Counted from the first letter of the stretch, positions 4,204 to 42,996 are shown. The stretch: 64,000 nt of DNA from an uncultured Candidatus Pelagibacter sp. (GCA_905618805.1 CAJQSZ010000002.1:1-64000); one strand, 5' to 3'. The notes: generated from the sequence alone by a model not told the origin. Translations and numbers: made by a program.

Positions 4204-5418
4204 ATGGCTAAAATTAAGGTTAAAAACCCAGTTGCTGAACTTGATGGCGATGAAATGACAAGAATAATATGGGAGTTTATCAAAGGTAAGCTTATTCTTC
4301 CATACTTAGATTTGGGTATAGAATATTTCGACTTAGGTATGAAAAGTAGAGATAATACTAATGACCAAATAACAATAGACTCGGCTGCTGCTATTAAAAA
4401 GATTGGTGTTGGTATTAAATGTGCAACAATTACCCCAGATGAAGCAAGGGTTGAAGAGTTTGACTTAAAAAAAATGTGGAGATCTCCTAACGGAACTATA
4501 AGAAATATTATAGGAGGAACGGTATTTAGAGAGCCAATAGTTTGTAAAAATATACCTAAGTTAGTTCCTTCATGGACCGATCCTGTAATTATTGGAAGAC
4601 ATGCATTTGGAGATCAGTACAGAGCAACAGATTTTAAAGTTCCTGGAAAAGGTAAAATGGAAGTTAAATGGACAGCCGAAGATGGTAGCCAAGAAATAAA
4701 ATATGAAGTTTTTAATTTTCCTGGGCCTGGTATAGCTTTATCAATGTATAATTTAGATAAATCAATAGAAGACTTTGCAAGATCATGTTTTGGTTATGGT
4801 TTAATTAAAAGATGGCCAGTTTATCTTTCAACAAAAAATACAATTCTAAAAGTTTATGATGGTCGGTTTAAAGATATTTTTCAAAGTATTTTTGATAAAG
4901 AATTTAAAATAAAATTTGAAAAATTAAAAATTACATACGAACATAGACTAATTGATGACATGGTAGCATGTGCTATGAAATGGAGTGGTAAATATATCTG
5001 GGCTTGTAAAAATTATGATGGTGATGTTCAATCTGATACTATGGCACAAGGTTATGGTTCTTTAGGGTTAATGACTAGCGTTCTACTAACTCCAGATGGA
5101 AAAGTAATGGAAGCTGAGGCGGCACATGGTACAGTCACGAGACATTATAGAATGCATCAACAGGGTAAAGAAACTTCTACAAATCCAATTGCTTCAATAT
5201 TTGCTTGGACCAGAGGTCTTGCACACAGAGGAAAACTAGACGGAAATGAAGAACTAATTAATTTTTCAAAAACTTTAGAAAATGTTTGTATAGATTGTGT
5301 TGAAAATGGATCAATGACCAAAGATTTAGCAATTTTAATTGGACCTTCAAGTAAGTATTTAACTACTAATGGTTTTTTAGATGAATTAGATGGTCAGCTT
5401 AAGCAAAAGCTTAATTAA
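4204..5418 (+). CDS. icd: NADP-dependent isocitrate dehydrogenase
   Basis: [37 protein letters not shown]; eukaryote-like IDH family. Confidence 0.95.
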
Positions 5419-5428: not shown

Positions 5429-8080
5429 AATATTTTCAAATGATTCTTGGATTTTATCTGGTAGTGTTCCTCCTGCTTGTGCAAAGTCAACTCTGCCGCC
5501 CCCACCTTTTCCACCAATAATCTCAGAGCCAGCTCTAACAATTTTTACAGCATCAAATTTACTTTCTAATGTTTTGGTAACACCCACAGCTAATCCAACT
5601 TTATTATCGTTGATTGCATAAATTATTACTAATCCTTCACCAATTTCTTTTTTTCCTTCATCAATTAACTTGCGTAAATCTTTAAATGGTAAATCTATGA
5701 TATTTTGAAACCTAACCTTAATCCCATTAATAACTTGATCATTAATTTTATTTTTTGTCTTGTCTTTTAAAATTGAGCCAACTGAAAGTTGATCAAATTG
5801 TTTATTAAGCTCTTTTATTAAAAATACTTGGTTGTTATTTTTGAGATTAGGCTTCCCACCTAATTCAATAATTTTTAACGTTAGTTCTTTTACATTTGCT
5901 TCATTCTTTTGATTTGACAAATTTGATAAATTTTCTTTATCATTTAAAAAGTTATCTAATTGGATGTCCCTTAATGCTTCAATTCTTCTTACTCCAGCTG
6001 CAATAGATGATTGGCTTATTATCTTAAATTTCCCGATATCAGCAGTGTTTATAACATGTGTCCCTCCACATAATTCTGTCGAAAAAAATTTTCCATTTTC
6101 ATTTCCCATAGATAAAACTCTGACCTCATCACCATATTTTTCACCAAATAAAGCTAGGGCACCATTCTCAACAGCCTCCTTAGGTGTCATTATTCTTGTT
6201 TTAACTTCTGATTTTTTTTGAATTATTGAATTAACATGATATTCAACTTTTTTTATCTCTTCCTCTGAAATGGGCTTCATATGACTAAAATCAAATCTTA
6301 ATCTATCAGATTCAACTAACGATCCTTTCTGAGTTACATGCTCTCCCAAAACTCTTCTTAATGACTCGTGTAATAGGTGGGTAGCAGAATGATAGGCTCT
6401 AATATTGTTTCTTTTTTCAATGTCAATTTTTAGTTCTATATTGCTATTAATCTTAATAGAACCTTTTTTAACTTTTCCATAGTGTGCAAATAAATCTCCT
6501 AGTTTTTTTTGTACATCAGATACTTCAAATTCAAAACTTTCCGTAGAAATTATTCCAGTATCAGCTACCTGGCCACCAGATTCTCCATAGAAAGGCGTCT
6601 GATTTGTAATTATAATTCCTTCATCATTTTCCTGAAGATCTTCAACTTCTTTATTGTCTTTAAGAATTAAAGTTATTATGCCTTCTGCTTTATCTGTTGT
6701 GTATCCTAAAAAATCTGTTGCTCCCAATTTATCTCTAATACCAAACCAAATTTTATCTAAAGAACTATCTCCTGATCCTTTCCAGTTTTTTTTTGCAAGT
6801 TCCTTACTTTCTTTCATCAATAGGTCAAACTTATTAGCATCAACTTTTAATGATTTATTTTTTAAAATATCTTCTGTCAAATCTAATGGAAAACCATATG
6901 TATCATAAAGTTTAAAAGCAATATCTCCTGGTAGAATTTTTTTAACTTTAAATATTTCATCGTCTAAAATTTTAATTCCCCTGTCTAATAAAACTAAAAA
7001 CTTTTCCTCTTCTGTTTTTAAAGTTTCTTTTATTAAAGATTGTGCTCTTTCAAGTTCTGGGTAATTATTAGACATCTCTTCCAATAATGTTTTAAAGACA
7101 TCATAAAAAATTGGTTTCTTCGAGCCTAACAAATGTGAGTGTCTCATGCCACGTCGCATAATTCTTCTAAGTACATACCCCCTACCTTCATTTGAGGGCA
7201 AAACACCTTCAGCTAATAAAAATGAGCTTGCACGCAGGTGATCTGCTATTACTCTAAAACTTGAGCTATTAGTTTCGTCTACTTTTACATTTAATGAATT
7301 TGAAGCAGATTGAATTAATTTTTTGAAATGATCTGTTTCATAGTTGTCATGAGTTCCTTGTAATAATGCAGCTACTCTTTCAAGACCCATACCAGTATCA
7401 ACAGATGGTTTTGGAAGATCAATTCTCTTACCTTTTGAAATTTGTTCATATTGCATAAATACAAGGTTCCATATTTCAATAAATCTGTTGCCATCCTCAT
7501 TTTTTGATCCAGGAAGACCTCCATCTAAATGCTCTCCATGATCATAAAAAATTTCTGAACAAGGTCCACATGGTCCAGTATCCCCCATAGACCAAAAGTT
7601 ATCTGATGTTGCTATCTTGATTATTCTATCTTCACTAAAGCCAGCTATTTTCTTCCAATAGTTAAAAGCTTGTTCATCATTATGGTATACAGTTACGTAG
7701 AGACGGTTTTTATCAATTCCAAACTCTTTAGTTATCAAATTCCATGCATATGTAATTGCTTCTTCCTTGAAATAATCCCCAAAAGAAAAATTTCCAAGCA
7801 TCTCAAAAAATGTGTGATGCCTTGGCGTATAGCCAACATTTTCAAGATCGTTGTGCTTTCCACCTGCACGTACACACTTTTGAGATGTGGTTGCTCTTAC
7901 ATAGTCTCTTTTCTCTAATCCAGTAAATACATTTTTGAATTGTACCATTCCAGAGTTAGCAAACATCAGTGTCGGGTCGTTATTTGGTACCAAATTACTA
8001 GACTCAACTATCTTGTGATTATTTTTTTCAAAATAATTTAAAAATGTTTCTCTTATTTCGTTTAATGTTTTGTCTGCCAT
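5411..8080 (-). CDS. alaS: alanyl-tRNA synthetase
   Basis: Full-length AlaRS; motifs [40 protein letters not shown]. Confidence 0.97.
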
Positions 8081-12596: not shown

Positions 12597-12743
12597 TTCA
12601 TTGTAGTTAAACTATCTCTGGTTGAAGTTATCCACAAGGCTACAAAATATACTTTGGATGTTCACCTTTTGATTCACCTTTGATTCAGTTACAGACTCAA
12701 AATACAACCTCTTGCGTGTACTGTATAACTAGTCTATAAATAA

Positions 12744-17348: not shown

Positions 17349-18134
17349 TTAACTTGCATCGAGAACTGCGTGTAAAAATTGCTTAGTTCTTTCATTTTTT
17401 GGATTATCAAATAATTGTTCTGGAGGTCCTTGTTCAAATATCTTTCCTTCATTAAAAAAACATACACGATCTGATATTTCTCTAGCAAAGCCCATCTGAT
17501 GTGTAACCATAATCATAGTAAGATCATGTTCTTTATTTAAAGATCTAATTACATTTAAAACTTCACCAACAACCTCTGGATCTAGTGCAGATGTGATTTC
17601 ATCTAAAAGCATAACCTTTGGTCTCATAGCTAAAGCTCTAGCAATTGCGACACGTTGTTGCTGTCCACCTGATAGTCTTGATGGGTGTTCATCTTTTTTA
17701 TCTGACAGTCCAACTAATTCTAATAAATCAAGAGCTCTTTCTTTTGCTTCTTCTTTTTTCATACCAAGTACTTCTATTGGCGCTTCAATACAATTTTGAA
17801 GAGCCGTCATATGAGGGAAAAGATTAAATTGTTGAAACACCATTCCTATTTTTGATCGTCTTTCTCGTAAATATTTTTCGTTTGCCACTATAAGTTTTTC
17901 TTTATCAGGCATATGAGTTAATGGCTCTCCCTCTAAATAAATTATACCCTGATCAATTTTTTCTAATGTCATTAAAGTTCTTAATACAGTTGTTTTGCCC
18001 GACCCCGATGGCCCAATAATTGAAACCATTTCATTTTTTTTAATTTCTAAATTAAGTTTATCTAAAACAACAAGATCTCCATATTTTTTTGTAACATCAA
18101 AAAATTTTACTAAAATATCATCAGAATTATTCAT
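17349..18134 (-). CDS. ehuA: polar amino acid ABC transporter ATPase (EhuA-like)
   Basis: [34 protein letters not shown]; linked to EhuBCD-like genes. Confidence 0.85.
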
Positions 18135-18812
18135 TTAATTTTTTACCTTTCCTTGAGCCTTGTTAACAAATCTTTCTAATTTTCTAATTCCTATAGCAGC
18201 AGGTATAGATAGAGCTAAAAAGATAACTCCAACCATAGTATATGGCTCCAAATAACGGTAGTGTTCCCCACCTACGGCTGTTGCTGCATGAAATAATTCT
18301 GCAACACCAATTGTTGATAATAAAGGAGTATCTTTAAAAATTCCCACCAAATAATTTCCCATTCCTGGTATCGCTATTGGAAAAGCTTGAGGAAAAACTA
18401 TTCTCCTATATGTATATATTGTAGAAAAATTTAATGCTCTGCATGCTTCCCATTGAGATTTAGGAACACCTTCCAAGGCTCCTCTATAAACTTCTGAAAG
18501 ATAGGTACCAAAATGAAGGCCTATGGTTATCATTGCTGTTACCCAGGCAGATAAAATTAAACCAAATTGAGGTCCAACAAAATAAACAAAAAATAATTGA
18601 ATAAGAAGTGGTGTCGAGCGAATAAATTCTACTACTTCTCTGACTATTATATTTATAACTTTATAAGGAGTACGTTGACCTAACAAAAATAACATACCCA
18701 CTATAACTGCTATTGCATAACCTATTCCAGCAGCCATTATAGTATTTAATGTTGCCCACAATAATTTTGGTAATATTTGATATGTAAAATCCCATCTCCA
18801 TTCTGCGTTCAT
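18135..18812 (-). CDS. ehuD: polar amino acid ABC permease (EhuD-like)
   Basis: HisM-type permease, EVYRGALEGVPKSQWEA motif. Confidence 0.78.
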   Translation of the reverse strand: MNAEWRWDFTYQILPKLLWATLNTIMAAGIGYAIAVIVGMLFLLGQRTPYKVINIIVREVVEFIRSTPLLIQLFFVYFVGPQFGLILSAWVTAMITIGLHFGTYLSEVYRGALEGVPKSQWEACRALNFSTIYTYRRIVFPQAFPIAIPGMGNYLVGIFKDTPLLSTIGVAELFHAATAVGGEHYRYLEPYTMVGVIFLALSIPAAIGIRKLERFVNKAQGKVKN

Positions 18813-18813
18813 A

Positions 18814-19485
18814 TTATATTTTTTCCTTTCCTATTTTTCTTGCAGCAAGAATTTCTAGCCAACGTAAGAAAGGGACAAGAAAGAACCTAGATATTATATA
18901 ATAAATTATAAGTGCAGTTCCGAAGCATTGAGCAGATAACCATGTAATTGCATTAATCTGTTTTGCTTCAAATGTTAAATCAACAACTGTGACTAATGCA
19001 ACTAATGCAGTAGCTTTTAAAAGTTCTACAGTTAAATTTGCTGCTGGTGGAAGTATAATTGGAAAAATTTGAGGGATAATAATTCTTCTCATTCTTTTTG
19101 CTGGACTTAAATTTAATGCATAAGCTCCCTCCCACTGACCTTTAGGTACTGCTAAGATTCCACCTCTTACAATTTCTGCTCCATATGCACCAAAATTTAA
19201 TCCTATTGCAACTACACCTGATGTGAATGCTTCTAGTGATAAACCAAAGAAAGGTAGCACATAATAAAACCAAAATAATTGAACCATTAAAGATGTTCCT
19301 CTAAAAAATTCTATATAGACAGTTGCAATGCCTTGAATAACTGAATTATTTGATACCCTCATTAGTCCAAAAATTATTGAAATAAGTGCATAAAGAATAG
19401 TAGCACAAATTAATACTTTAACTGTAGTAACCGTTCCTAATAATAGTGTAGATCCATGTTCAACTAAAAATGAAAAATAACTCAA
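18814..19485 (-). CDS. ehuC: polar amino acid ABC permease (EhuC-like)
   Basis: HisM-type permease, EIVRGGILAVPKGQWEGA motif. Confidence 0.78.
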   Translation of the reverse strand: MSYFSFLVEHGSTLLLGTVTTVKVLICATILYALISIIFGLMRVSNNSVIQGIATVYIEFFRGTSLMVQLFWFYYVLPFFGLSLEAFTSGVVAIGLNFGAYGAEIVRGGILAVPKGQWEGAYALNLSPAKRMRRIIIPQIFPIILPPAANLTVELLKATALVALVTVVDLTFEAKQINAITWLSAQCFGTALIIYYIISRFFLVPFLRWLEILAARKIGKEKI

Positions 19486-19509
19486 GCTTAATACCTTTAG
19501 ATTATATTT

Positions 19510-19544
19510 AAAAAAATCAGGCGACTTTTCTATATCGCCTGATT
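19510..19544 (-). terminator. intra-operon terminator/attenuator between ehuB and ehuC
   Basis: 10-bp perfect inverted repeat AATCAGGCGA...TCGCCTGATT followed in minus orientation by U7. Confidence 0.8.
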
Positions 19545-19564
19545 AAATTAATTTATTTTTTATA

Positions 19565-20413
19565 TTATCTGTTGCAAGCCCAAGCAGTTGTCATATGGGC
19601 AGGCTGAATTTGTGCCTCACCATATCCATACTTACCTGCTCTTTTCATCATTTTAGCTGGATTAGCCATAACTTTTGCTAATGCTTTATTAAAATTATCT
19701 TTAAATTCTGTATCAGTTTTTCTAAAACCCATACCAACTACATTTAAAGTTTCTTCAGGCATTTTTTTAGGATCAGCTATTTCAAACATACCATTGCTTT
19801 TTTCAACATGTTCTTTTCCACCAAATAATGTTTGTACAGCAACATCAGCTCTTCCAGCTTTCATAGCGGCTAGAATTCCTACCTCACCTTCAACTAACAT
19901 CATTTGACTTTCAGGCACACCATATTTTTTAGCAGCTGCAACTGTGTTAAAGCCAGCACCAGTTACAAGTTTTGCACCTGTTTTAATGACATCTGCATAA
20001 TTATAAATTCCTTTAGGATTTCCTTTTGGAACCATCATGGCATCACCAAAAACACCTATAGGATCTGAAAAGTTCATACTTTTACATCTACTAGGTGTAA
20101 TATACATACCACCAGTAATCATATCTGAACGACCAGCATTTATTCCTGGTATCAATCCTGACCATTCAAAAGTTTTAAATTCCATTTGATCTTCAGTAAT
20201 TCCCATTTCCTCAAGAACTGTCAATGCAATCATATTAACAAATCCTAAGGGTTGACCATTATCTCCTGCATAAGCCCATGGCACAGCAGTACCAAATCCA
20301 AGTCTTAACTTGCCACCATTTTTTAGTTTGTTAGTTAACGTTTCGGCACTAACTGTAGAAATACTAAAAAGGATTACAAGAAAAACTCCAATTGATTTTA
20401 AAAATTTATTCAT
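19565..20413 (-). CDS. ehuB: ectoine/hydroxyectoine-type solute-binding protein (EhuB-like)
   Basis: Signal peptide; SBP family 3; GLIPGINAGRSDMITGGMYITPSRC resembles EhuB. Confidence 0.75.
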   Translation of the reverse strand: MNKFLKSIGVFLVILFSISTVSAETLTNKLKNGGKLRLGFGTAVPWAYAGDNGQPLGFVNMIALTVLEEMGITEDQMEFKTFEWSGLIPGINAGRSDMITGGMYITPSRCKSMNFSDPIGVFGDAMMVPKGNPKGIYNYADVIKTGAKLVTGAGFNTVAAAKKYGVPESQMMLVEGEVGILAAMKAGRADVAVQTLFGGKEHVEKSNGMFEIADPKKMPEETLNVVGMGFRKTDTEFKDNFNKALAKVMANPAKMMKRAGKYGYGEAQIQPAHMTTAWACNR

Positions 20414-21520: not shown

Positions 21521-21962
21521 GTGGAGAGAAATCTCTTGTTGTGCATATAAAATTTATCTTTCCACTTATATATCCCCCCATTTTGTAATATTTTTTCGTA
21601 ATTTTTTGCCATAATTTTTTCAGAAATATATTTTTTTTGAAATCAATTTCGGCCCCCTTTAACTGTCTGAAACAGACTATATATAGTAAACTATTAGGTT
21701 CACTTCCTGTGTAAGGGGTATTGACCTTTTAAAAACCAATGAAAAACCCAATCTGTTTAGGGTCCTAATTAATTATTGCTTTAGATATGGGGTTATTAAA
21801 CTAATGAATTACTAATGAATTTTCCGGATTCTGTGTTAATGTTTCCATAAGAACAATAAAGAGAGTGACATAACTCGTCGTTTTACTAGGTTTAAAAGGT
21901 ACTAGGGTAGTTACGAAAGTGGGATCAGTCGTCTTTAAATTTAATTATTTAAGGAGGTTTGA

Positions 21963-23129
21963 ATGAAATTTGGATATTTTTGTAACACTACTAATTGGAA
22001 TCATAAACCATACCATCAACTATTAAATGAAACCCAAGAAATCACTACTTACTGTGATGAAAATAATTGGGACTCTATTTGGTATACGGAACATCACTTT
22101 AATCATGAAGGAATGGAAGCGTGCACAAACCCTTTAATGATGGGGGTGGACGCTGCTGCTAGAACTAAACAAATTAGAATTGGTCAAGCCTGCAATGTAA
22201 TTACTTTTCATAACCCGATACGTCTTGCAGAAGATATAGCTTTATTGGATCAATTATCAGATGGGAGAGTTGATGTTGGTATTGGTAGAGGAATATATGG
22301 CAGAGAAGCTATCAACATGAATAAAGAAGCAGACTTAAAAGATCAGGCAAAAAATTTTAGATTATTTGATGAGACTTTAACAGTAATGAAAAAAGCTTGG
22401 ACAGAAGAATTTTTTAGTCATCAAGGTGAGTTTTATACCTACCCTACCCCTGGTTTTGTTTGGCAACATGATATGAGTCCACCTAGTGAGAAATTTTTAG
22501 ATATAAAAACAAGTGAAATAAAAAAAATTAGCGTTGTTCCAAAACCGAAACAGCATCCACACCCTCCTATATGGCAAGTAGTTGATGGAGCAAGATCGAT
22601 TGAATGGGCTGCACAAAATGGTTTAAACACTATAATGTGGATACCTACCGTTAGAGCTTTAAAGAAAAGATTTGAGATTTATAGAGATGCAAAATCTAAA
22701 GCAGAAAATAGAGATGTGCCATTAGGAGAGGGTGTATCTTTAGTTAGAGATATGTTTGTAGCAGAAACTATGGAGGAAGCAGAAAAAATGGCTGGTGAAC
22801 ATATAATTAATTATATGAAATGGGTTTGTCATTGGAGAGGGTTGGGAAATCATATGGATCCAGATGAAGAGTTACCAGAAACTAAACATAAATTAGATTT
22901 ACTTAATTATGATTTTTTACATAAAAGAAATTTATTATTTGGAACCCCTGAATATGTGGTTAATAAAATAAATGAATTAAAATCTGAATTAAATTTACAA
23001 AACTTACAAGTATGGTCTAACTTTCCTGGTATGGAGCATGAAGCTTGCATGAGAAGTATAAAACTGTTTAATGATGAAGTGATACCAAAAATTAATTTAG
23101 ATAATTCAAATATAGAAAAGGCTAGTTAA
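21963..23129 (+). CDS. LLM-class (luciferase-like) flavin-dependent oxidoreductase
   Basis: WYTEHHFNHEG, IRIGQACNVITFHNPIRLAEDIALLDQLSDGRVDVGIGRG; strong SD AAGGAGG. Confidence 0.92.
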   Translation: MKFGYFCNTTNWNHKPYHQLLNETQEITTYCDENNWDSIWYTEHHFNHEGMEACTNPLMMGVDAAARTKQIRIGQACNVITFHNPIRLAEDIALLDQLSDGRVDVGIGRGIYGREAINMNKEADLKDQAKNFRLFDETLTVMKKAWTEEFFSHQGEFYTYPTPGFVWQHDMSPPSEKFLDIKTSEIKKISVVPKPKQHPHPPIWQVVDGARSIEWAAQNGLNTIMWIPTVRALKKRFEIYRDAKSKAENRDVPLGEGVSLVRDMFVAETMEEAEKMAGEHIINYMKWVCHWRGLGNHMDPDEELPETKHKLDLLNYDFLHKRNLLFGTPEYVVNKINELKSELNLQNLQVWSNFPGMEHEACMRSIKLFNDEVIPKINLDNSNIEKAS

Positions 23130-23716
23130 TGAAACTTGAATTAAGAAAATTTACAAAATTTGTTGATAAAACTTTTATTGAAGGTGGTAAAGAAGCTAAG
23201 GAACCAGTGTTATTAGTATCTGTTGCTGCTGTATTTAAAAATCCATGGCATGGAAAAGGTTTTGTTGAAGACTTAAAACCAATTATTTTAGATTTAGCTC
23301 CTAAACTAGGTACTATTCTAGTCTCAGAATTAATAAAAGAAATGGGCTCTCCTGAAAAAATCTTAGCTTATGGTAAGGCTGGAACTGTCGGATTAAATGG
23401 CGAAATTGAGCATGCATCTGCATTTATTCATACATTAAGATTTGGAAACAAATTTAGAGATGCTGTTGGGGGCACTTCTTATTTAAGTTTTACCAATACA
23501 AGAGGCCCTGCTGGGTCTAAAATGTCAATTCCAATGATGCATAAAACAGATTCTGGTCTAAGACCTTATTATCTTACACATGAATTCACTATTCATGACG
23601 CCCCATTTGACGATGAAATAGTAATAGCAATTGGTGGTGCATCAAGTGGTAGAGCACATGCTAGAACTGGTGATAGATATCAAGATATGAAGGAAATGGG
23701 ACTAGATCCCAAATAA
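23129..23716 (+). CDS. DUF1185 / 'amino acid synthesis' family protein
   Basis: NPWHGKGFVEDL, GKAGTVGLNGEIEHASA, HARTGDRYQDM typical of the family. Confidence 0.8.
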   Translation: MKLELRKFTKFVDKTFIEGGKEAKEPVLLVSVAAVFKNPWHGKGFVEDLKPIILDLAPKLGTILVSELIKEMGSPEKILAYGKAGTVGLNGEIEHASAFIHTLRFGNKFRDAVGGTSYLSFTNTRGPAGSKMSIPMMHKTDSGLRPYYLTHEFTIHDAPFDDEIVIAIGGASSGRAHARTGDRYQDMKEMGLDPK

Positions 23717-23720
23717 ATTG

Positions 23721-24503
23721 ATGCCTCACAATTTTGATCCTAGTCAAAATTATCATTCATTCATTGATAATAAAACTGAGCCATTAGTTTTCGTTCATGG
23801 TGTTGGTCTAGATCACAAAATGTGGGACTCTCAAATTACTGCTTTAAATAACTACTCAATAATTACCTATGATTTATTAGGGCATGGAAAAACTCCTTAC
23901 AATAAAGAAGAGGTCACATTAAATGATTTTTCAGATCAACTAGATTATTTATTGAAATTTTTAAAAATTGATAAAATTAACCTTGTGGGTTTCTCTCTAG
24001 GATCATTAATTGCATTAGATTTTGCATCAAAATTTCAAGATAAATTAAAAAGCCTTACTGTAATAGGAACAACATATAAAAGAACTGCAGAACAAAGAGC
24101 TTTAGTTATAGAAAGATTTGAGCAGGCTAAGCTAAATAAACCTATTTCAAAGCAGGCACTAAAAAGATGGTTCACAGATAAATATTTAGATAACCATCCA
24201 GAAATTTATGATCAATTTATCAAAATTTTGACAAAAGATGGTGATAATCATCTGAACTTTTTAAAAGCTTACAAGCTATTTGCTTATCACCAAGATGATG
24301 TTGGTATAATTAAAAATATTAAAACTAAAACTCTTGTCATGACGGGGTCAGGTGATTCAGGCTCCACAGTTCAGATGTCAAAATCCTTATCTGATGATTT
24401 AATGAATTCAAGTTTTATTGAAATAAATAATGGAAAACATCTTTGTAGTATAGAGTGTGCAGATGATGTTAATATTAATCTTAAAAATTTTATTAATAAT
24501 TAA
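23721..24503 (+). CDS. alpha/beta-fold hydrolase (RutD/PcaD-like)
   Basis: FVHGVGLDHKMWD, YDLLGHGKTPY, GFSLGSLIALDFA nucleophile elbow; ATG at 23721 preferred over TTG at 23718. Confidence 0.85.
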   Translation: MPHNFDPSQNYHSFIDNKTEPLVFVHGVGLDHKMWDSQITALNNYSIITYDLLGHGKTPYNKEEVTLNDFSDQLDYLLKFLKIDKINLVGFSLGSLIALDFASKFQDKLKSLTVIGTTYKRTAEQRALVIERFEQAKLNKPISKQALKRWFTDKYLDNHPEIYDQFIKILTKDGDNHLNFLKAYKLFAYHQDDVGIIKNIKTKTLVMTGSGDSGSTVQMSKSLSDDLMNSSFIEINNGKHLCSIECADDVNINLKNFINN

Positions 24504-25985
24504 ATGACAAAAATTAGAAACTTTAAAATGTTTATAGATGGCCAGTGGGTTGACTCTGAGTCTGGCAAAACAATTGAAACTTTAAATCCAGAGAATAACG
24601 AAGTTTGGGCAACTGTACCCGAGGCAAGTACAAAAGATGTTGATAAAGCAGTTAAGGCTGCACAAAAAGCTTTTGAAAACTCGTGGTCTAATTTACATCC
24701 AAGAGAAAGAGCTAAATATTTAAGATCTCTAGCAGATCAATTAAGAGATAATGCTGAACATCTTGGTACTATTGAAACTGTTGATACAGGAAAAATTTTT
24801 AGGGAGACCAAAACACAAGCTAGCTATATTGCGGAATATTATGATTACTTTGCGGGTCTTGCAGATAAAGTTGAAGGCACTGTTGTGCCAATAGATAAAC
24901 CAGATATGCAAGTAACAACAACCAGAATTCCTATTGGTGTAGTCGCTGCAATCATTCCATGGAATTCTCAAATGTTATTAACTGCTGTAAAACTAGCACC
25001 GGCATTAGCAATGGGAAATACAGTGGTAATAAAAGCTTCTGAACTTGCACCCGTAACTTTATTAGAATTTGCAAAATTAGTTGAAAAGTCAGGAATACCA
25101 AAAGGAGTAGTTAATATAATCACAGGTTTAGGTGACCCTTGTGGAAAGGCGCTAACTACACATAATCTTGTGGAAAGAATTGCATTCACTGGTGGGCCTG
25201 AAACAGCAAAACATATTATAAAAAATTCTGCTGAAAACTTATCCCAAGTTAGTTTGGAGCTTGGTGGAAAAAGCCCAGTCGTTGTATTTAATGATGCTGA
25301 ACAAGAAAATGCTCTTAATGGAATTACTGCGGGAATTTTTGGTGCAAGTGGCCAGAGTTGCATTGCAGGATCAAGGCTTTATATCCAGTCTGAAATATAT
25401 GATGAATTTTTAAATAAATTAGTAGCAAAAGCAGAAAAGATAAAATTGGGCGCACCAATGGATAAAGATACTCAAATGGGTCCTTTAAATAGTTTTAAGC
25501 AGTTAGAAAATATTGAAAAAAATATTAAAACTACTGTTGAACAAGGTGGAATAATTAGGTGTGGAGGCAAAAGATCCAGCATATCCAATAAAGGTTATTA
25601 TTTTCCTGCAACAATAATTGAATGTGAAAATCATAACTTACCTGCAGCTGAAAATGAATTATTTGGCCCAGTATTATCTGTAATGAAATTTGATACAGAA
25701 GAACAGGCTATTAAATTAATGAATGATAATAAGTACGGATTGTCTTCTGGGGTTTATTCATCCAACCTTGGAAGGGGTATGAGGGTATCTAAAGCTGTTA
25801 GAGCAGGAATAGTTTTCGTAAATACATATAGGTTAATTTCTCCTATGGCACCATTTGGAGGAATTAAAGATAGTGGTTATGGAAAAGAGGCAGGCATTGA
25901 GTCTATTAAAGAATATACAAGAATAAAAACGACATGGTATAATTCTTCGGATAAACCGATGACTGACCCATTCACTATGGGTTAA
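24504..25985 (+). CDS. aldehyde dehydrogenase family protein
   Basis: PWNSQMLLTAVKLAPALAMGNTVVIKASE, LELGGKSPVVVF, GQSCIAGSR catalytic Cys. Confidence 0.95.
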   Translation: MTKIRNFKMFIDGQWVDSESGKTIETLNPENNEVWATVPEASTKDVDKAVKAAQKAFENSWSNLHPRERAKYLRSLADQLRDNAEHLGTIETVDTGKIFRETKTQASYIAEYYDYFAGLADKVEGTVVPIDKPDMQVTTTRIPIGVVAAIIPWNSQMLLTAVKLAPALAMGNTVVIKASELAPVTLLEFAKLVEKSGIPKGVVNIITGLGDPCGKALTTHNLVERIAFTGGPETAKHIIKNSAENLSQVSLELGGKSPVVVFNDAEQENALNGITAGIFGASGQSCIAGSRLYIQSEIYDEFLNKLVAKAEKIKLGAPMDKDTQMGPLNSFKQLENIEKNIKTTVEQGGIIRCGGKRSSISNKGYYFPATIIECENHNLPAAENELFGPVLSVMKFDTEEQAIKLMNDNKYGLSSGVYSSNLGRGMRVSKAVRAGIVFVNTYRLISPMAPFGGIKDSGYGKEAGIESIKEYTRIKTTWYNSSDKPMTDPFTMG

Positions 25986-25989
25986 ATAT

Positions 25990-26847
25990 TTGACTGCAAG
26001 ACACTATATTTTAGTTTTATTTATTATGTTTGTTTTTGGAAGTTCATATCCAATTAATAAACTTGCCTTAAATACTTCCCTGCCACCTATGTTAGCTGGA
26101 TCTTTAAGAATGTTTATACTTTTTATTTGCCTTCTTCCATTTTGCAAATTCAAAATTCCAGATAGAAGATATTTTCTTCCATTAATAGGTTTTTCCTTGT
26201 CAATGGGTTTTGGTGTAATATTTTTTTTAAATTTATCTTTAGGAAAAGCAACTTTTGTTGCTCCAATAATTATAGGCGCACAACTTGCAATACCTTTTGC
26301 AATTCTTGCTAGCTCAATTTTTCTTGGAGAAAAAGTTAATACTAAACAATGGTTATTAATATTGATTTCTTTTTTTGGAATTTTTATGATTGGATACGAT
26401 CCAAATTTAAAAGGAGAAATTTATGCAATTTTTTTATGTAGCGTTTCAGCTTTTTTTTATGGAATTTCAAGTGTGCTCTCGAGATATATAAAAGAAGTAG
26501 ATGTAAAATTTACAAATATGGTTATGGGGTTTACTGGCTTTATAACTATTTTATTATTTTCAGTTTTCTCTGAAGGTAATACAATCAATCATTTAATGAA
26601 CATAAATACTAATACTTGGCTTCTTTTACTTCATAACGGAATATCAGTATCTGTTATTGCTCATACCTCTATGTTTTATCTTTATAAATTTTATTCAGTT
26701 AATAAGGTTATGCCCTTCTACTCTTTATTCCCAATATTTGGTTTAATCCTAACTTTCTTAATTTTTGAAGAAATTCCTTCACTACTTAGTGCAATTGGTG
26801 GGACAATTGTGATTATTTCGGTCTATCAGCTTCAAAAAATAAAATAA
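25990..26847 (+). CDS. EamA/DMT-family transporter (TTG start)
   Basis: Ten-TM DMT pattern; start codon in the track is TTG. Confidence 0.82.
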   Translation: MTARHYILVLFIMFVFGSSYPINKLALNTSLPPMLAGSLRMFILFICLLPFCKFKIPDRRYFLPLIGFSLSMGFGVIFFLNLSLGKATFVAPIIIGAQLAIPFAILASSIFLGEKVNTKQWLLILISFFGIFMIGYDPNLKGEIYAIFLCSVSAFFYGISSVLSRYIKEVDVKFTNMVMGFTGFITILLFSVFSEGNTINHLMNINTNTWLLLLHNGISVSVIAHTSMFYLYKFYSVNKVMPFYSLFPIFGLILTFLIFEEIPSLLSAIGGTIVIISVYQLQKIK

Positions 26848-26922
26848 ATCATCTATTGAAAATTTTTTAAAATAAGCTTTAATTTCTCTTTTATAAATTG
26901 TTAACAATCAAAGAGGAAAATA

Positions 26923-28104
26923 ATGAAAAAACTATTTATTGCTGCATTTATATTCGTTTCAACTTTTACAACGAATATATTCGCAGAAGTTAAGATGGGA
27001 ATTATATTGGGATTTACTGGTCCCATTGAATCTCTAACACCAGCCATGGCTGCATCTGCAGAGCTTGCTTTTAAAGAAGCATCCGATTCAGGTTCACTAT
27101 TAGGTGGCGAAACTATTACAGTAGTAAGAGCAGACTCAACTTGTGTTGACTCAGCGGCAGCAACAGCAGCAGCTGAAGGTGTTATTGCACAAGGTGTAGC
27201 AGCTATTATGGGTGCTGACTGTTCAGGTGTAACAGGTGCCATTGCTTCAAACGTTGCCGTACCAAATGGTGTGGTAATGATTTCACCATCAGCAACCTCT
27301 CCTGGTTTAACTGAGTTGGCTGATAAAGGTTTGTTCTTTAGAACAGCACCATCAGATAAAAGAGGTGGACAAGTTTTGGCTGATGCAACTAAAGACAAAA
27401 AAATAAAGAATATAGCAATCACTTATACGAATAATGACTATGGAAAAGGCCTTGCAGATATGTATAAAATTGGTTTAGCTTCTCATGGCATTAAAGTAAC
27501 AACTGAACTTGCTCATGAAGATGGAAAGGCTGATTACTCATCTGAAGTAGCTACATTAGCTTCAGCAGGTGGTGATGCATTAGCTGTACTTGGTTATTTA
27601 GACCAAGGTGGTAAAGGTATAATACAGGCTGCTTTAGACTCTGGAGCATTTGATACTTTTGTTCTTGGAGATGGAATGGTTGGTCAATCACTTGCAGATA
27701 CATTTGGTAAAGATTTAAAAAAATCTATAGCAACAAGACCTGGATCAACAGGTAAAGGTGCACAAATATTTGCAAAAGTTGCTGGCGCAGCCAATATAGA
27801 TCCTGACGCGCCTTATACAGCCTCATCATATGATGCTGGTGCTTTACTTGTTCTTGCAATGCAAGCAGGTGGATCAGCTGATAGAGCCTCTATTGCTAAA
27901 AATGTAATGGCGGTTGCTAATAGTCCTGGAACAAAAATTTACCCAGGTGAACTTAAAAAAGGTTTAGACTTGCTAGCTAAAGGTAAGAAGATTAACTATG
28001 AGGGAGCAAGTGATGTTACTTTCACAAAAGAAGGTGATGCCACTGGATCTTTCTTGGAGCAGGTAGTTAAAAAAGGAAAATTTGAAACTACTAAACAAAG
28101 ATAA
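26923..28104 (+). CDS. LIV-type (branched-chain amino acid-like) ABC solute-binding protein
   Basis: Signal peptide; IILGFTGPIES, Peripla_BP_6-type domain. Confidence 0.88.
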   Translation: MKKLFIAAFIFVSTFTTNIFAEVKMGIILGFTGPIESLTPAMAASAELAFKEASDSGSLLGGETITVVRADSTCVDSAAATAAAEGVIAQGVAAIMGADCSGVTGAIASNVAVPNGVVMISPSATSPGLTELADKGLFFRTAPSDKRGGQVLADATKDKKIKNIAITYTNNDYGKGLADMYKIGLASHGIKVTTELAHEDGKADYSSEVATLASAGGDALAVLGYLDQGGKGIIQAALDSGAFDTFVLGDGMVGQSLADTFGKDLKKSIATRPGSTGKGAQIFAKVAGAANIDPDAPYTASSYDAGALLVLAMQAGGSADRASIAKNVMAVANSPGTKIYPGELKKGLDLLAKGKKINYEGASDVTFTKEGDATGSFLEQVVKKGKFETTKQR

Positions 28105-28162: not shown

Positions 28163-28924
28163 TTAAATATTACTTATAATTCTAAAAATACCTAATATTG
28201 AAATAAAGATAAGAAAATAGAAAACTACTTTTCTATAAGTTTCTTCTTTGCTATTTACAAAAAAATTATTACCAATAAAAACACCTATTGGTAAAATAAA
28301 AATTAATGGAATAACCCTATAAACAGTTGTCAGATCAACAATTCCAGCAAAAAAACTTAAAACAAAAGCGTAAATATCTGTTAAAAAAAATAAAGCTGCC
28401 AAGGAACCTCTGATTATTGATGGCTGTATACTTGTAGTTAATAAAAAAAGTGCTATTGGCATTCCACCCAATGTTATAAGTCCATTTAGAGTTCCAGAAA
28501 TTATTCCTGTAAAAATTTTTCCATAATCATTATTAATCTTTTGATTTGAATAACCTTTCATTAATAAAAATGAAAAAAATATTATCGACAAACAAACAGA
28601 TAGATGTGTTGTTTCTGGGTTTAAATGTCTTAATAAATAAAGACCTACTGGTGATCCAATCATTATTCCTATCAATATCTTAAGAACAAATCCCCAATCA
28701 ATCTTATTCCAAATATAAGGAACCATAAAAATGCTAATTATTACTTCTAATGCTAGAATTATAGGAACTATTTCTATTGCTGGAAGTATAAAAGAAAAAC
28801 CAGAGATGCATGTGGCTGAAAAGCCAAAGCCATTAAATCCTCTTATGATAGATGCAACCAATACTGTAAACATCATGAAATAAATTTCAACTAAACCATG
28901 ATGAAAATATAGTAAAAAATCCAT
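28163..28924 (-). CDS. TauE/SafE-family sulfite/organosulfonate exporter-like membrane protein
   Basis: Multi-TM; RGFNGFG, GIISGTLNGLITLGGMPIALFLL pattern of the family. Confidence 0.8.
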   Translation of the reverse strand: MDFLLYFHHGLVEIYFMMFTVLVASIIRGFNGFGFSATCISGFSFILPAIEIVPIILALEVIISIFMVPYIWNKIDWGFVLKILIGIMIGSPVGLYLLRHLNPETTHLSVCLSIIFFSFLLMKGYSNQKINNDYGKIFTGIISGTLNGLITLGGMPIALFLLTTSIQPSIIRGSLAALFFLTDIYAFVLSFFAGIVDLTTVYRVIPLIFILPIGVFIGNNFFVNSKEETYRKVVFYFLIFISILGIFRIISNI

Positions 28925-42273: not shown

Positions 42274-42888
42274 TTAATATTTTTGAATAAAAGCTATGAT
42301 TATAGCAATTAATATAAGTACGCACGCTGAAATTGTATTTATAACTTTTGGATTTGCTTTTATCCAAACAATTAATTTTCTAGCAAGTATAGCGTAAGCA
42401 ATTAAAGATAAAAAATCTAAGACCACATACGTTGTGATCAAAATTAAAAATTGAACAATGTAATTTGCATTAAAATCAATAAATTGCGGAAAGATTAAGG
42501 GAAAAAACATCCAAGCCTTAGGACTTGTTCCTGCAACTAAAAATCCATCTTTAAAAAATGAAAAAAAACTTTTTGATGAAATATTATTTGAACTTATATC
42601 TTTTGGTCTTGAGTGATAGATATCATAAGCAAGGTAAAGTAAATAAGCTATCCCTACCCACTTAAAAAGATTTAAAAAATTTGGATTTTCAATAAAAAAA
42701 GATCCAAGAACAAAAATTACTAAAGTTGCCTGAATAATATTTGCTGTAACATCTCCTAATGCTGTCCAAATACATTTTTGAACTCCATAATTCATTGAAT
42801 ATGAAATAATTACAATTCTAGGTGTTCCAGGAGTAATAAATAAAAATAAGATTATTTGAAGAAAAAGAAAATAATTTAAGGGGAGCAT
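42274..42888 (-). CDS. LysE/RhtB-family amino acid exporter
   Basis: FITPGTPRIVIISYSMNYGVQKCIWTALGDVTANIIQ, LVAGTSPKAWMFF. Confidence 0.82.
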   Translation of the reverse strand: MLPLNYFLFLQIILFLFITPGTPRIVIISYSMNYGVQKCIWTALGDVTANIIQATLVIFVLGSFFIENPNFLNLFKWVGIAYLLYLAYDIYHSRPKDISSNNISSKSFFSFFKDGFLVAGTSPKAWMFFPLIFPQFIDFNANYIVQFLILITTYVVLDFLSLIAYAILARKLIVWIKANPKVINTISACVLILIAIIIAFIQKY

Positions 42889-42899
42889 TTTATCGTTTG

Positions 42900-42947
42900 G
42901 ATAGTCCTAAAAAAACCAGGAGCTAAAGATGGCTAAATAGGACTATC
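42900..42947. repeat. 10-bp inverted repeat GATAGTCCTA-N28-TAGGACTATC in a divergent promoter region
   Basis: Read directly from sequence. Confidence 0.85.
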
Positions 42948-42996
42948 GTAAAAATCATAATACCACGCTCATAAAATAAATGCATTAATCATTTTT

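Follow-up and report, generated by a model that had tools for sequence, protein, structure and literature searches.

Trigonelline degradation provides the closest described systems for the locus considered here: TgnA/TgnB open the ring of trigonelline (PMC8269262), and for trigonelline degradation by Acinetobacter baylyi ADP1 a stimulating effect of the DUF1185 homologue TgnF on the TgnE-dependent oxidation of succinic semialdehyde has been reported (PMC7913881). In the present analysis, a cassette of four genes and the leader RNA in front of it were studied in a 64,000-nt stretch of DNA (the window; GCA_905618805.1, CAJQSZ010000002.1:1-64000) from an uncultured Candidatus Pelagibacter sp., whose SAR11 (Pelagibacteraceae) genome comprises 810 kb on 58 contigs and is 64% complete. 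By analogy with the trigonelline (Tgn) system, the cassette on balance probably serves an oxygenolytic opening of an N-methylpyridinium carboxylate of the trigonelline/homarine type, with translation controlled by the leader RNA.

Four-gene cassette in SAR11

All four genes lie on the plus strand. They encode an LLM flavin-dependent oxygenase of 388 aa (21963-23129; PF00296, 1e-45), which is the putative ring-opening enzyme, a DUF1185 / AA_synth protein resembling the helper TgnF (23129-23716; PF06684, 8.7e-64, 215 bits), a PcaD/TgnD-like alpha/beta hydrolase (23721-24503), whose Ser-Asp-His triad is kept in the alignment, and an aldehyde dehydrogenase (ALDH) of the TgnC-like subfamily (24504-25985; PF00171, 1e-163). 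The hydrolase start is taken to be the ATG at 23721, although mechanical gene calling begins at a TTG (23718). The oxygenase and DUF1185 genes overlap by 1 nt, 4 nt separate DUF1185 from the hydrolase, and hydrolase and ALDH genes abut with a gap of 0 nt. An initial annotation of this region had called the genes from the oxygenase through a downstream solute-binding protein (SBP) with correct coordinates, and its statement that the first four are separated by at most a few nt holds.

A search with the DUF1185 protein led to 80 SAR11 loci, and all contigs of sufficient length show the order LLM-DUF1185-hydrolase-ALDH. A reductase accompanies the same order in a distant alphaproteobacterium (G199, locus L118), and the linkage of the gene set, which the initial annotation had proposed to check by gene neighbourhood, is not due to chance. 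The LLM gene is present in 86 of 298 SAR11 family genomes and in 47 of the 140 high-quality ones, which makes the cassette of four genes an accessory one in SAR11. In HTCC9565, a SAR11 isolate, a part of the cassette stands at the end of a contig (L029). Apart from the window's own genome, no further LLM relative was found among 269 genomes of the phylum, and the viral contigs searched contained neither an LLM relative nor the leader motif.

In comparisons of the window with divergent SAR11 cassettes, each of the four genes mostly shows 30-50% identity at fourfold sites, whereas the encoded proteins are 85-94% (DUF1185; 85-98% within SAR11), 75-90% (LLM), 75-80% (ALDH) and 47-55% (hydrolase) identical. 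All four genes are conserved at the protein level, which holds most for DUF1185 and least for the hydrolase. The AlphaFold model of the oxygenase (pLDDT 48) was unusable.

In the G199 cluster a PF01613 reductase gene stands directly upstream of the LLM gene, followed by DUF1185, hydrolase and ALDH (LLM 56%, DUF1185 62%, ALDH about 51% identity), and the cluster adjoins a LysR regulator and a Rieske oxygenase with sub-threshold similarity to glycine betaine monooxygenase. G199 thus provides a case in which an oxygenase of the SAR11/G199 clade is accompanied by a reductase. Within the SAR11 cluster neither a flavin reductase nor a RutB family member was found, as the initial annotation had noted, and no RutC family member is among the cassette genes either.

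In a second SAR11 type, a thiamine diphosphate (ThDP) enzyme of 566 aa and of the acetolactate synthase/Xsc kind sits between the LLM and DUF1185 genes, and the same enzyme (about 60%) also accompanies DUF1185-type clusters in other alphaproteobacteria. This acetolactate synthase / sulfoacetaldehyde acetyltransferase kind of enzyme is a recurrent extra in the DUF1185 clusters of two unrelated groups (L031 6304-8004, L060, L190, L195, L185, L186 and L188). Upstream of the ThDP-type cassette, a TauD-type dioxygenase, a choline-dehydrogenase-like GMC oxidoreductase, EamA and a 2OG-Fe(II) oxygenase are often encoded (L031 698-5036, L060, L190, L193, L195). A DAO gene adjoining the LLM gene in L189 was considered as an N-methyl oxidase and rejected, being a truncated glycerol-3-phosphate dehydrogenase.

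Leader RNA upstream of the oxygenase gene

The leader element (21856-21957) lies directly upstream of the oxygenase start. The 110 nt 5' of this start are conserved throughout the SAR11 cassette types, and the same element was recognised in 66 distinct leaders. In the window, an aptamer-like part (21856-21939, plus strand) is predicted to comprise an outer stem P1, the conserved segments ACAUAACUC / AAGUGGGAUC and a hairpin P2 with a variable tip, and in silico folding places a further hairpin on the plus strand at 21930-21957, where it hides the Shine-Dalgarno sequence (GGAGG, 21953-21957). The consensus reads ACAUAACUC-RUCG-variable-CGA-AAGYGGGAUC, then RRUCGUCUU, then the Shine-Dalgarno sequence.

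Hairpin P2 is predicted by RNAalifold. With P2 and P1 together, 91% of cells pair, compared with 35-50% in slid versions, and none of 500 shuffles matches the leader in covariation score or in the share of paired cells. Folding pairs the Shine-Dalgarno sequence in all 36 distinct sequences, whereas shuffling of the part upstream lowers the share to 68%; the corresponding mean energies are -8.4 and -4.4 kcal/mol. This hairpin and P1 share sequence, its 5' arm running into the 3' arm of P1 (about 21928-21936), and the two structures are therefore mutually exclusive. The layout predicted by these folds is that of a translational switch, and the leader is a candidate new riboswitch.

A covariance model of the element (R1) scores 62.6 bits on the window (E 4e-11) and detects the element upstream of the SAR11 cassettes examined, where each intact leader inspected has it; in L031 the leader lies at 5053-5140. 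Copies were sought in the stretches around the loci and in 400 kb each of the genomes G401 and G434; no element was detected in those 400-kb portions, in cassette-free loci or in Tgn-type clusters. Because the leader travels with the cassette, its signal is probably the cassette substrate or an intermediate. In L004, a decayed second copy (6413-6473) lies 315 nt upstream of the intact one, perhaps the scar of an older cassette insertion.

No family in Rfam 15 matches the leader; RAGATH-12, the best sub-threshold match, was rejected at chance level (E 2). In the searched passages of a survey of SAR11 RNAs (Meyer 2009, PMC2704228) the leader is not mentioned. The window also holds the Rfam elements SAR11_0636 and rhtB, at 12620-12709 and 42882-42965, both on the minus strand.

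Cassette boundaries and flanking genes

Downstream of the ALDH gene follow an EamA transporter gene (25990-26847, plus strand), a LIV-type SBP gene (26923-28104, plus strand) and a convergent TauE-family gene (28163-28924). In the initial annotation the cluster spanned 21963-28104 and was credited with its own SBP. This extent is wrong at both ends, as the leader RNA at 21856-21957 was overlooked and the EamA and SBP genes are flank. The SBP belongs to a widespread liv system: copies 71-84% identical and adjoining livMHFG occur in many LLM-negative SAR11 genomes, and the SBP, often with livMHFG, is found where the cassette is missing.

The cassette-free loci define the boundary. In L243-L245, potABCD-like, DoeA-like and EutA-like genes are followed by EamA or nothing and then by the SBP gene and livMHFG, while in L242 and L246 other genes precede EamA-SBP-liv, with no cassette genes between; EamA thus stands without the cassette in L242, L243 and L246 and is absent in L244 and L245. 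Among the cassette-bearing loci, L192 shows the same flanks plus exactly the four genes. As both EamA and SBP stand in SAR11 loci without the four genes, they are flank, and SBP, EamA and TauE were rejected as cassette members on the basis of the cassette-free loci; TauE is also missing from many cassette loci.

The upstream flank of the window differs, with MOSC and an EhuB-like ABC system, and the cassette therefore sits in variable surroundings. The ABC transporter genes (17349-20413, minus strand) include a binding protein that scores 165 bits on the ectoine EhuB model (cut-off 191), so that an ectoine-like, amino-acid-type importer lies near the cassette. In many SAR11 genomes DoeA-like (ectoine hydrolase) and EutA-like genes with a potABCD-like transporter adjoin the cassette site, whether the cassette is present or not (L005 4752-6667; L192; L243-L245; L247).

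Proposed function

Among plasmid records, a compact DUF1185-hydrolase-flavin reductase-LLM-ALDH operon is found in Leisingera, Chimaeribacter, Shinella, S. meliloti (pSymA) and Acinetobacter, and in Acinetobacter sp. PK01 (L129) three of its genes are named tgnA, tgnB and tgnC by NCBI. Compared with these tgn-type operons, the window proteins show 56-58% identity for DUF1185, 51% for ALDH, 20-29% for the hydrolase and 24-31% for LLM. In the ALDH tree, the SAR11 enzyme falls into the same subfamily as TgnC, apart from succinic semialdehyde dehydrogenase (SSADH) and not nested inside the TgnC clade. In a fold search, the best matches of the hydrolase were the PcaD-like structure 2xua and others. 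The chorismate-mutase-like fold that the initial annotation had attributed to DUF1185 is borne out by PDB 2qtp and 3byq (PMC2954203), and its reading of the locus as a flavin-oxygenase catabolic unit is supported, probably for an N-heterocycle.

The proposal draws on gene order, recurrence, boundaries, homologies, RNA conservation and competing folds in silico; from these we infer the substrate, the individual reactions, the sensing of a ligand and its effect as an ON signal. The LLM oxygenase, with reduced flavin mononucleotide (FMN) supplied by a reductase encoded elsewhere, would cleave a C-C bond and open the N-methylpyridinium carboxylate ring, the resulting aldehyde would be oxidised by the ALDH, the hydrolase would split the N-acyl enamine into formate, methylamine and a C4-C5 acid, and DUF1185 may assist a late imine/aldehyde step. 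For trigonelline, ring opening is said (in an account attributed to Perchat, 2018) to occur at C5-C6, with the ALDH acting next and the hydrolase then giving methylamine, formate, CO2 and succinate semialdehyde. At the RNA level, formation of P1, presumably on ligand binding, would block the Shine-Dalgarno hairpin and allow the oxygenase to be translated. More tentatively, the leader may belong to a new class of riboswitch, responding to trigonelline or homarine (both N-methylpyridinium betaines) or to an intermediate formed after ring opening; it would then switch on a ring-opening pathway of SAR11 whose LLM oxygenase comes from outside the TgnB clade.

Co-occurrence of a methylamine module (22/29, Fisher p 4e-8) was tried as support for methylamine release and set aside; the PhnJ control behaves alike (11/13, p 3e-5), so the co-occurrence is uninformative and reflects clade or genome content.

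Several results weigh against the proposal. In the LLM tree, the SAR11 and G199 enzymes form a clade (SH-aLRT 95) outside that of AcTgnB and its kin, with a long branch between; the system would work like Tgn without belonging to it by its oxygenase. The SAR11 hydrolase likewise falls outside the Tgn hydrolase clade, with fold and triad kept. No SSADH (TgnE) gene is found in or adjacent to the cassette, a 40% homologue being encoded elsewhere in the genome, and the extra ThDP enzyme of some SAR11 cassettes is not required by the Tgn scheme. A PF01613 reductase was found neither in the window's genome, at its 64% completeness, nor in seven near-complete SAR11 genomes (G401, G407, G413, G425, G434, G195 and G281), five of which carry an LLM oxygenase. 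Every SAR11 genome checked, whether it has the cassette or not, encodes PF03358 FMN reductases, which are therefore possible but unspecific sources of FMNH2. As for the RNA, most P2 pairs are invariant and so neither support nor weaken the structural model; P1 pairs vary, their register drifts in window-type leaders, and the fit of P1 in the window is poorer than in most.

In a less likely but serious rival reading, the cassette would represent homarine (hom) degradation as it occurs in SAR11, with homarine opened to an N-methyl-dehydroglutamate that leads to N-methylglutamate and glutamate. A conserved homarine pathway exists (Ferrer-Gonzalez et al. 2026, doi 10.1038/s41564-026-02313-7) and N-methylglutamate dehydrogenase takes part in it (cited in PMC13390433). 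Homarine is a phytoplankton osmolyte and exceeded trigonelline in marine particles, in values that were afterwards corrected 25-fold downward, and its route to a C5 acid needs one ALDH only, as in the cassette; one paper, however, argues that a TgnAB-type opening is sterically unlikely for homarine. The abstract of the 2026 homarine paper reportedly mentions SAR11. If the SAR11 hom genes were the cassette genes, the enzymes would be already known and only the RNA would be left as new.

For the leader, a protein-binding or thermosensing cis element in place of a metabolite riboswitch is possible, though less likely. Competing folds prove no ligand, and hairpins hiding the Shine-Dalgarno sequence are common in AU-rich leaders, as the 68% in shuffles indicates. 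The most conserved leader letters, however, lie in the junctions and the bulge and not in the stem tips in 43 of 43 sequences, which is aptamer-like, and the leader travels with one catabolic cassette.

A different N-heterocycle or a cyclic osmolyte, e.g., an ectoine-like compound, is an improbable substrate. It is suggested by the DoeA-like and EutA-like genes that adjoin the cassette in many SAR11 loci and by the EhuB-like ABC system in the window, but cassette-free loci (L243-L245, L247) have such neighbours too, so that the adjacency reflects a shared hot spot, and the neighbours miss the curated cut-offs. The SsuD-like desulfonation and the likeness to the Rut pyrimidine pathway raised in the initial annotation, to which the LLM fold, the alpha/beta hydrolase and the TauE-family gene nearby had pointed, are both very improbable, with 29.5 bits on SsuD (TIGR03565, cut-off 518), 74 bits on RutD (cut-off 238), no RutB or RutC family partner and TauE as flank.

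With the Tgn-like opening of an N-methylpyridinium carboxylate as the preferred reading, the cassette gains wider relevance: SAR11 are among the most abundant marine bacterial groups and pyridine-family betaines are phytoplankton osmolytes, so a cassette with a candidate RNA switch in about one third of the sampled SAR11 family genomes would tie this compound class to its consumers. Whatever binds the leader is probably the substrate itself or a closely related compound, and would offer a cheap route to the substrate.

Comparison with known systems

The description of the cluster as undescribed-looking in the initial annotation was too strong, since the same gene set is the neighbourhood that NCBI names tgnA/tgnB/tgnC (trigonelline) and a pathway for homarine appeared in print in 2026. 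What remains new is that the oxygenase is divergent, that the unit is a mobile cassette and that a leader RNA precedes it.

DUF1185 genes were also seen in other settings. On a Sulfitobacter mediterraneus plasmid (L133 5083-8585), two adjacent DUF1185 genes stand beside 6-hydroxynicotinate reductase and UPF0280, another N-heterocycle context, and in L172 (2335-9411) and L173 a DUF1185-hydrolase pair stands beside an amidase and two unusual fused RidA proteins, each of >400 aa and with three RidA (L-PSP) stretches.

The Tgn system (A. baylyi ADP1; PK01, L129) shares with the SAR11 cassette an LLM oxygenase, a TgnC-type ALDH, an alpha/beta hydrolase and DUF1185 (TgnF) in one operon, whereas the SAR11 cassette has another LLM clade, a divergent hydrolase and another gene order, its cluster lacks reductase and SSADH genes, and the leader RNA replaces the GntR regulator of Tgn. 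The alpha-(N-acetylaminomethylene)succinate hydrolase of the vitamin B6 pathway (PDB 3kxp) has as its substrate an N-acyl enamine resembling the Tgn intermediate; it is an alpha/beta hydrolase with a weak sequence match to the cassette hydrolase (1.6e-5), less good than that of the PcaD-like structures. The G199 cluster shares the gene order of the SAR11 cassette and adds the PF01613 reductase, Rieske oxygenase, LysR regulator and DAO; the leader RNA was not found there. Homarine catabolism (Ferrer-Gonzalez et al. 2026) likewise concerns a marine N-methylpyridinium betaine and a bacterial pathway. The cis-regulatory RNAs of SAR11 (SAM-V riboswitch, rhtB and SAR11_0636; PMC2704228) are short leaders too, some of them reaching the start codon.

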